A stretch of 56,210 nucleotides of DNA, from assembly GCA_020062745.1 (NCBI GenBank), contig JAGUVT010000075.1, positions 1-56,210 of the forward strand, written 5' to 3'. A program made the position numbers and the translations under genes. The notes beneath the pieces are model-generated. The model searched no databases, was not told where the DNA came from, and saw only the letters and a program-made list of their open reading frames with translations. The stretch is from Deltaproteobacteria bacterium (GTDB lineage: Bacteria > Bacillota > Desulfotomaculia > Desulfotomaculales > JAGUVT01). Below are positions 9,695 through 12,145 of the stretch, in pieces (within the stretch, counting starts at the first letter, position 1; each line of letters starts with the position of its first letter).

Positions 9695-9779
9695 ACGTGT
9701 CAGAAGAACCGTCCCCTGTCACGTGGATGTCGCCGCTGCTGTGGGAAACAACAAACAGGAGAACCGTCCCTCTGTTTGT
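9695..9779. repeat. Two inverted-repeat units sharing core GAACCGTCCC with different arms
   Basis: ACGTGTCAG...AGAACCGTCCC...CTGTCACGT (9695-9724) and ACAAACAG-GAGAACCGTCCCT-CTGTTTGT (9751-9779). Confidence 0.6.
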
Positions 9780-9786
9780 CCATCTG

Positions 9787-10437
9787 TTAGGCGCTGGATA
9801 TTTTTTTAACCAGGCTTTTTCCTTCCCTCATTTCCACCACGTAGACTGCATCCGCAGCTTCTGTGAGGTGCTGGTTGTGGGTAACCATCACCACCTGACG
9901 GCCGAACATGTCCGACAGGCTTTTTAAAAACCTGGCCACGTTCGGCGCAAATTCCTCGCTCACGTGCTTGGCCGGTTCATCCAGCAAAAGCGGCCCGGCC
10001 AGGGGAGGCCGGGAGGTCTGCAAAAGGGCCACCCTTAATGCCAGCGAAATCACATCCACCACGCCGCCGCCGCGGGCATCCTGCGGCCGGTTCTTAACTT
10101 CCACCCCGCCGTATTTGGAGACGACGTAAAATTCCGCATCCGGCTGCCCCCGCCGCTCCTGCACCTCCACTTTAAAAGAGATGTCTTCCCCAAAGGTAAA
10201 CTGCAAGGCGTTGGTGACCATATGCTCGATTTGGGCCCTTGCCTGTTCCCGGGCAAAGTCCGACGCTTCCTGCAACAAAAGGCGCGTCTGTTGCAAAAGG
10301 TCAATTTCGGCTACCAGTTCCCTGCGGCGCCGGATGGCCGACTCCCGTTCTTCCTGCAGCTTCTCTTCTTCCCACCGGCGTTTATGGTAGTAGTTTTCAA
10401 ACTTTTTTAAGGCCGGCTGCAGTTCTTCTATTTGCAC
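9787..10437 (-). CDS. Rad50/SMC-like C-terminal ATPase lobe as a stand-alone protein
   Basis: Coiled coil, then ARGGGVVDVISLALR signature region, GPLLLDEPAKHVS Walker B/D-loop, QVVMVTHNQHL H-loop; GTG start with GGGGAGG SD. Confidence 0.8.
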   Translation of the reverse strand: MQIEELQPALKKFENYYHKRRWEEEKLQEERESAIRRRRELVAEIDLLQQTRLLLQEASDFAREQARAQIEHMVTNALQFTFGEDISFKVEVQERRGQPDAEFYVVSKYGGVEVKNRPQDARGGGVVDVISLALRVALLQTSRPPLAGPLLLDEPAKHVSEEFAPNVARFLKSLSDMFGRQVVMVTHNQHLTEAADAVYVVEMREGKSLVKKISSA

Positions 10438-10455
10438 GATAAAGCCTCCCCGGGC

Positions 10456-10707
10456 CTAATTCTTAATCAGATCCCATGGAATAAGCGCTTCTATCTCCCT
10501 GCTCAGCTTTTCAATCCGGTCCTGTAAATTTGCTATCTCCTCGTCCAGCCTGTCCGGGTCCACACCCAGTTCCCTGGCTTCAGCCAGGTACTGCTTTTCC
10601 TGTTTCGCCAGTTCCTCCAGGCGCGTTGCGGCCTGAATGCGCTTGTTTTTCGCCTTCTCCAGCCCGTCCTTCAGTTCCTTTATCTTTGCCTCATAATCCA
10701 TTGCCAC
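10456..10707 (-). CDS. Small coiled-coil protein, probable middle segment of split Rad50-like complex
   Basis: 83 aa, heptad-rich, GTG/ATG start with AAGGAGGT SD, overlaps preceding ORF end by 17 bp. Confidence 0.7.
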   Translation of the reverse strand: MAMDYEAKIKELKDGLEKAKNKRIQAATRLEELAKQEKQYLAEARELGVDPDRLDEEIANLQDRIEKLSREIEALIPWDLIKN

Positions 10708-12145
10708 CCACGACCTCCTTTAGTATGCGCTCAATGGTTGACTGGTCGACTTCTCTAAAACAGGCCGGGCACCTTCCCAGTTTCTTCAAGGCAGCCCCGT
10801 ACTCCCGCGCCATGCCGGTGAGCAAAAGCTCGTTTTCACGGTAAAAATTCCGGCCCTTTTCCAGTCGCTGGCGGGTACTGAACAGATTATTGCGAATGCT
10901 TGCCAGCCTGTCCACTTTGCCCGGCAGGGCGGATAAAACTTCGATAACGGAGAAAGCCTTTTCGATGCCTCCGGTAGCAGCCAGAACAAACCGGCCGGCC
11001 GGTATTTCTTTCCTGACCGTACCCAGCTTGCAGTTTAAAAGTTCGGCCTTTTCCAGCTTCAAACGCAAACCGGCAAGTTCTTCCATTTTTGCGGCAGCCC
11101 GGCTCAAACAGTCTGTAGCCGCCACAATCCGGGTTTGTAACGTCCGCTCACCTGAGACAGCAACAGCTTTTTCCTGCAAGGCTGCGAGAGATCGGTAACG
11201 CTGATATTTTTTTTCTGCATCCGAGAGAAAATTACGCCCGTCATCTATCTTTCCGGTAAGTGCAATTTCATGGCGGTTCCGGCTGGCTTCCCTCCTGTTG
11301 ACGTCAAGCCGGTTTTTCAGGCCGGCCAGTTTTTCCGCTCTCCTGTATGCATATTCAAGGTCTGCGGCCATCTCTTCCGCCCGGGGCAATTGACGCAAAC
11401 TATCCAGACGGTCCCCGGCGATGCTTATTTCCGCCCTTGTTCCAGCCAGGTTCTGCCTTAATCTGGAGAGCACGGCGGCACGCTCCCGCATTTTTGATAT
11501 TTGCTCCGCCAAACTGCTGCAATGCAGCAACTTCACTTGCAGCGCCGGCAGGCCGGCAAACTCCTTTAATTTTTCATCCAGGGAAACCAGGTATTCTTCC
11601 AGGCGTTTTTCCTCCTGCTGCAGCCTGGTGATGTCACGCATGGCGGCCCGTACCGCGGCATCTACGATATGCACGCCGTGCAGCCTGCCGATTGCTTTAG
11701 CCTTGGTGGAACCCGGACCGGACAGCAGAAAGGGGCTATCCAGTTGCAGGGCAAAATTCAAGGAGACTTCCAGGCCGTCGTCCAGGCGCACCTTGCAGAT
11801 GCCGTGCAAACCGGTTACCTCCGCCGGGATGTCGGCGCCGAAGCCCTCGTAAACCTCCCGCCTGCCGTCCGGGCAAACTACCGCGTAGCAGTTTTTATTC
11901 CGGCCGCGCTCCCTTGTTACCTCCGTTCCGTCGTCGAAAACCGCCGTCACCCGGCACCCGGAAGCGCCCGCCCGGATAAAGTCGCTGCCTTTGGGCTCGT
12001 TTAAAAATAACCATCGCAGAGCACGGATAACAGCGCTTTTGCCCCGGTCCGATTCCCCGATAATTACCGTCAGGCCGGGACTTAAATCGATCTCGGTATA
12101 TTCGTGGGATTGAAAGTTTTCCAGGCGTATTTTGTTGACCAGCAT
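10691..12145 (-). CDS. Rad50/SbcC-like N-terminal ATPase lobe and coiled coil ending in a CxxC zinc-hook motif
   Basis: MLVNKIRLENFQSHEYTEIDL, Walker A GESDRGKSAVIRALRW, long coiled coil, C-terminal LGRCPACFREVD. Confidence 0.85.
   Translation of the reverse strand: MLVNKIRLENFQSHEYTEIDLSPGLTVIIGESDRGKSAVIRALRWLFLNEPKGSDFIRAGASGCRVTAVFDDGTEVTRERGRNKNCYAVVCPDGRREVYEGFGADIPAEVTGLHGICKVRLDDGLEVSLNFALQLDSPFLLSGPGSTKAKAIGRLHGVHIVDAAVRAAMRDITRLQQEEKRLEEYLVSLDEKLKEFAGLPALQVKLLHCSSLAEQISKMRERAAVLSRLRQNLAGTRAEISIAGDRLDSLRQLPRAEEMAADLEYAYRRAEKLAGLKNRLDVNRREASRNRHEIALTGKIDDGRNFLSDAEKKYQRYRSLAALQEKAVAVSGERTLQTRIVAATDCLSRAAAKMEELAGLRLKLEKAELLNCKLGTVRKEIPAGRFVLAATGGIEKAFSVIEVLSALPGKVDRLASIRNNLFSTRQRLEKGRNFYRENELLLTGMAREYGAALKKLGRCPACFREVDQSTIERILKEVVGGNGL

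Follow-up and report, generated by a model that had tools for sequence, protein, structure and literature searches.

The Rad50-like ATPase encoded in a 56,210-nucleotide stretch of DNA from a member of the Desulfotomaculales (hereafter, the window) is divided among three separate genes. The first, Rad50-N (N), encodes the Walker A lobe and a long arm with a zinc hook near its C-terminus; the second encodes a short coil protein; and the third, Rad50-C (C), encodes the other ATPase lobe. On the minus strand, the genes run in the order NurA, HerA, Mre11-like nuclease, N, coil, C, and the three rad50 ORFs lie where a preliminary description of this DNA had placed them (Table 1). We consider it probable that their products constitute a trans-split, heteromeric Mre11-Rad50, in which N and C would build one head, the hook-bearing arm would be modular, the coil protein would be a structural subunit and DNA ends would be processed together with HerA-NurA. 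Physical assembly, zinc binding, ATPase activity, where exactly the coil protein sits and that the complex acts in repair are features that we infer.

Table 1 Features of the split rad50 operon, with positions in the window.
Feature	Coordinates	Strand	Basis
NurA nuclease, first gene of the operon, 325 aa	15006..15983	-	Pfam NurA PF09376, E 3.3e-22, 79.6 bits vs cut-off 21
HerA-type ATPase/translocase, 623 aa	13120..14991	-	Pfam DUF87/HerA central domain, E 3.4e-11; NCBIfam HerA, E 2.8e-18 (under curated cut-off)
Mre11-like nuclease, 325 aa	12146..13123	-	Metallophos PF00149, E 6.9e-12; archaeal Mre11 NF041031, E 2.1e-11 (under cut-off)
Rad50-N: Walker A lobe, 47-residue repeat arm, C-terminal zinc hook CPAC, 484 aa	10691..12145	-	
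Five tandem 47-residue helical repeats in the N arm, residues 204-438	10832..11536	-	Autocorrelation and repeat listing
CPAC zinc-hook motif of N, residues 459-462	10760..10771	-	Sequence; N-tail profile
Separate coil protein: helix, LGVxP turn, helix, 83 aa	10456..10707	-	PHROG 18563, E 1.1e-6
Rad50-C: coil, signature GGG, Walker B LLLDEP, H-loop, 216 aa	9787..10437	-	PHROG 15167, E 1.1e-62

The N protein resembles Rad50 both in its ATPase lobe and at its tail. It matched AAA_23 (E 2.1e-12) and, across residues 3-464, PHROG 16465 (E 7e-78), and its profile matched the Rad50 N lobes 5f3w and 3aux in the PDB (E about 1e-12). The Walker A is canonical (GESDRGKS), and G30, G35, K36 and Q134, which belong to the Walker A and the Q-loop, were invariant in 27 homologs. 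A zinc-hook CPAC near the C-terminus of this first piece had already been noticed, and a profile of the N tail agreed with it: the best PDB match was the zinc hook of P. furiosus Rad50 (1l8d, E 4.6e-4), with 6zff in fourth place. The two hook cysteines, C459 and C462, were at least 90% conserved. The preliminary description also had the chain cut at the hook apex and again on the return coil. The break into three pieces stood, but its position at the apex did not: N continues for 22 residues beyond CPAC to its C-terminus, and since the break falls about 20 residues past the CxxC, N holds the entire hook turn, with the CxxC presumably at the apex of the arm. The AlphaFold model of N was of low confidence (mean pLDDT 62.8, pTM 0.30).

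The remaining ATPase motifs reside in C. The separate ORF had been reported to carry LLLDEP and an H-loop; both motifs were found, the latter as VTH, and GG at 123-124, DE at 153-154 and H187 were invariant in the C proteins of 30 homologs. The best PDB match of the C profile was Rad50 3aux (E 2.8e-14). Coil and C were also folded as one chain by reading through one stop, which served only as a computational tether; this model had a mean pLDDT of 79.5, and its best structural match was the P. furiosus Rad50 head chain 1ii8_B. Instead of the ABC signature LSGG, the signature region reads ARGGGVVD (that is, xGGG), just as first described. When the alignment between the C profile and Rad50 structures was extended without gaps, and with canonical residue numbering, Gly123-Gly124-Gly125 aligned with the Ser-Gly-Gly of LSGG. 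In P. furiosus Rad50, the serine of the signature is important (entry 1us8). Because in this register its position is occupied by Gly here, the split family may use an altered ATP chemistry.

The coil protein was conserved across 31 aligned loci and had no match in 14 control genomes; its weak matches include coils of Rad50, SbcC and SMC proteins. Its gene overlaps N by 17 nt in a different reading frame and starts with GTG, preceded by the SD AAAGGAGGT. C begins 18 nt past the coil stop, also with GTG, behind the SD GGGGAGG, so that each downstream ORF has its own SD, as originally proposed. Directly downstream of the C gene, AGAACCGTCCC is present twice, at window positions 9705 and 9760, and is perhaps part of a dispersed repeat.

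The preliminary description had held that the split is real and no frameshift artefact, and comparison with other genomes upheld this. Sampling across the phylum covered 40 loci, every one of which had the same three-way split. In 39 of them, N has CPxC close to its end; in the remaining one, N could be read as one frame for its first 109 aa only. Among 398 phylum genomes, 66 matched the C profile, only three of these without a separate C ORF, and every searched genome of the Thermoactinomyces family (23/23) had a separate C ORF, in open frames of 220-235 aa. Some phylum genomes (G180, G217 and G398) contain two copies of the C gene. Relatives within the same order and beyond had three ORFs in the same order, mostly following Mre11, and the check for an uninterrupted chain across both junctions in relatives found none. 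Neither in the window nor in the relatives or the 40 loci did one polypeptide contain both lobes joined by a coiled coil. By sequence comparison, all three genes are under purifying selection, with dN/dS in pairs of close relatives of 0.08-0.40 for N, 0.01-0.26 for coil and 0.03-0.23 for C. A sequencing error or a decaying pseudogene, in favor of which we found nothing, is refuted by these comparative data, namely conservation in dozens of families and purifying selection, and we give it practically no weight. The split is old, conserved and general.

Three ORFs could still yield one chain through programmed frameshifting or stop-codon readthrough, and the short overlaps and gaps at the junctions, together with the reading frame shared by coil and C in the window, are what would be cited for it. 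However, the N-coil offsets were evenly distributed over the three frames (23/23/21), gaps spanned -35 to +202 nt, and it was common for ORFs to have an SD of their own; given such offsets and gaps, no common frameshift or readthrough can join the pieces. N and C can moreover be unlinked. In Acetivibrio alkalicellulosi, a single contig carries Mre11, N and coil, and the sole good match for C is found on a different contig, while N and C are separated by about 107 kb, on opposite strands, in phage Tunturi_5 and by about 93 kb in phage Magritte. Being so far apart in Acetivibrio and these two phages, N and C must work in trans. Finally, N and coil of phage vB_BboS-125 are separated by a gene with the annotation AP2 domain protein (L080:5584-6156), which is possibly a homing endonuclease and a hint at the origin of such splits. 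We therefore regard joining into one chain as highly improbable and retain the reading of three separate polypeptides.

Three separate ORFs also occurred in Thermoactinomyces, in plasmids and in phage vB_BboS-125, the breadth among phages being judged from phage and plasmid collections. Plasmids of Paenibacillus, Brevibacillus and Geobacillus encode an Mre11-N fusion, with coil and C separate. The loci L086 and L089, from Brevibacillus and Paenibacillus plasmids, carry the Mre11-N fusion, coil, C and HerA as a set. In two divergent loci, L077 and L078, which are possibly mobile elements, other genes lie between N, coil and C.

The only close single-chain relatives were eleven short Rad50s without hook or coil, which form one cluster inside the split tree. 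Six of these mini-Rad50s are fused to Mre11 (L066-L068 and L074-L076) and five are not (L065, L069, L070, L071 and L073). The cluster adjoins the window's own group, and the enclosing fork has a support of 93/89 in a tree that is unrooted and has long branches. Because they nest inside the split tree, the mini-Rad50s are likely, rather than proven, to be secondary re-fusions that lost the hook. These hookless proteins show weak similarity to mad3 of MADS. A twelfth single-chain row, L079, has a branch of great length and is probably a member of a different family.

The arm of N is built from repeats. Autocorrelation of the N arm in 26 homologs gave peaks at lags 47, 94 and 141 (z 26.9, 19.3 and 14.2), and the hook lay within 5 residues of position 411 + 47n in 62 of 70 sequences. 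Between relatives, the number of repeats changes in whole units, shifting the hook by about 47 residues per step, and coil length did not correlate with arm length (r = -0.08). Each repeat contains one likely helix break, T-x-G-[LVI]-[EP], and helices were interrupted at several repeat boundaries in the low-confidence model of N. The arm also exceeds the length with which the helices of coil and C could pair. With regard to a long antiparallel coiled-coil arm as in Rad50/SbcC, the N arm is predicted to be helical, but it is made of 47-residue tandem repeats and its model is weak; the modules may form either a rod or a bundle that folds back. With an arm of variable repeats whose length the coil does not track, simple pairing of all of N with the short return helices that coil and C provide is not feasible, and the earlier picture of a simple cut through an ascending and a return coil is not supported as it was put. 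Tentatively, and at somewhat less than even probability, we suggest that the arm could be a self-contained stack of 47-residue modules with half a hook at its free C-terminus; two other polypeptides would close the head and support the arm, resulting in a modular, dissociable tether. If so, the complex could open by subunit exchange instead of hook dissociation, and helical modules could be gained or lost singly during evolution.

These lengths also bear on the place of the coil protein. N and C might form the head, and the coil protein, instead of belonging to the arm, might act independently as a regulator or adaptor that, for instance, links to HerA-NurA or Mre11; the missing correlation with arm length fits this idea, as does the fact that the helices of coil and C fall short of what pairing with the full N arm would take. 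In addition, phages Tunturi_5 and Magritte, which both keep N and C, had no clear coil protein, so that it is either absent or unrecognisable there and is not indispensable everywhere. On the other hand, the gene for the coil protein sits between N and C in almost every bacterial locus, the weak matches of the protein include Rad50, SbcC and SMC coils and it is missing from the hookless mini-Rad50s, so it goes with hook and arm. An independent coil protein thus appears unlikely to us, and we favor its role as a structural subunit.

The neighboring genes suggest a function. An Mre11 partner nuclease gene accompanies the split Rad50 in the window and in the compared loci, and the sequence of the nuclease contains the motifs DTH, GGD, GNHD, VHG and GHAH. 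Profile searches and locus comparison showed that NurA and HerA are encoded in one operon. SbcC had no match in the source genome, in a search that was positive in 14/14 control genomes, and AddA gave nothing above the cut-off in the source genome. In archaea, NurA, HerA, Mre11 and Rad50 cooperate in end resection (PMC9960219; PMC2288612). Given that NurA, HerA and Mre11 are linked as in archaea, and that SbcC had no match and AddA none above the cut-off, DNA-end processing is the likely role of the complex. Plasmids and phages carry split copies, and C and HerA are weakly similar to the MADS defence proteins mad3 and mad8; the split complex might accordingly serve mainly mobile-element replication or defence, its chromosomal copies being domesticated. 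We find this improbable, as the complex occurs in every searched genome of the Thermoactinomyces family and widely across the phylum, and the NurA-HerA-Mre11 linkage matches the archaeal repair operon (PMC2288612).

In the mechanism of end processing that we propose, N and C would be made separately and would fold together into one ABC ATPase head, with N supplying the Walker A and Q-loop and C the signature, Walker B, D-loop and H-loop. Two heads would bind an Mre11 dimer and engage upon ATP, as in ordinary Mre11-Rad50. The C-terminus of N would be free and would carry the zinc hook, at the end of the arm of 47-residue helical modules, so that one zinc could join two N arms. The coil protein, a separate structural subunit, would lie against a portion of the arm and serve there as a partial return helix. 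Together with HerA and NurA of the same operon, the machine would open and resect broken DNA ends.

Features shared with Rad50/SbcC (SbcCD) are the two ATPase lobes, which resemble those of Rad50 in sequence as well as in fold, the N tail, which matches the P. furiosus hook 1l8d, and the adjoining Mre11 gene. Rad50/SbcC, however, is one gene with the signature LSGG, whereas the present system has three genes, an extra 83-aa subunit, a hook at a free C-terminus, an arm with a variable count of 47-residue repeats and the signature xGGG. The archaeal herA-mre11-rad50-nurA cluster likewise encodes the same four activities together, but here the hosts are bacterial, the order is nurA-herA-mre11-rad50 and rad50 is in three pieces. 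Separate N and C chains are also present in the crystallographic P. furiosus Rad50 head (1f2t and 1ii8, chains A and B); that split was the work of the experimenters, while the present one is natural and comes with an arm, a hook and a third piece. Phage members of the three pieces were known as separate entries of three separate families, PHROG 16465, 18563 and 15167, labeled exonuclease, unknown and ATPase, and we found no link among these three as one Rad50. Mre11/Rad50 fusions from Anaerostipes and Bacillus phage 0305phi8-36 without one P-loop NTPase segment have been described (Yoshida 2011, PMC3175470), and the plasmid Mre11-N fusions found here resemble them. A separate C or coil gene is not described in that paper's passages on the fusions; a separate C gene would explain the missing P-loop segment. 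In the non-subscription literature searched, we found no description of a split Rad50/SbcC.

Rad50 is usually treated as one chain, whose coiled coil links the head halves and extends to the zinc hook. A natural, widespread three-part Rad50 shows that the chain need not run on through the hook, and this form allows arm, hook and head to be swapped independently of one another. Its arms, which differ in length step by step, provide a test of how tether length and the hook matter. The three-part form may also explain the 'half' Rad50 genes of phages and plasmids that are without a C-lobe. Overall, the split opens a new route to studying how Rad50 holds and processes broken DNA.
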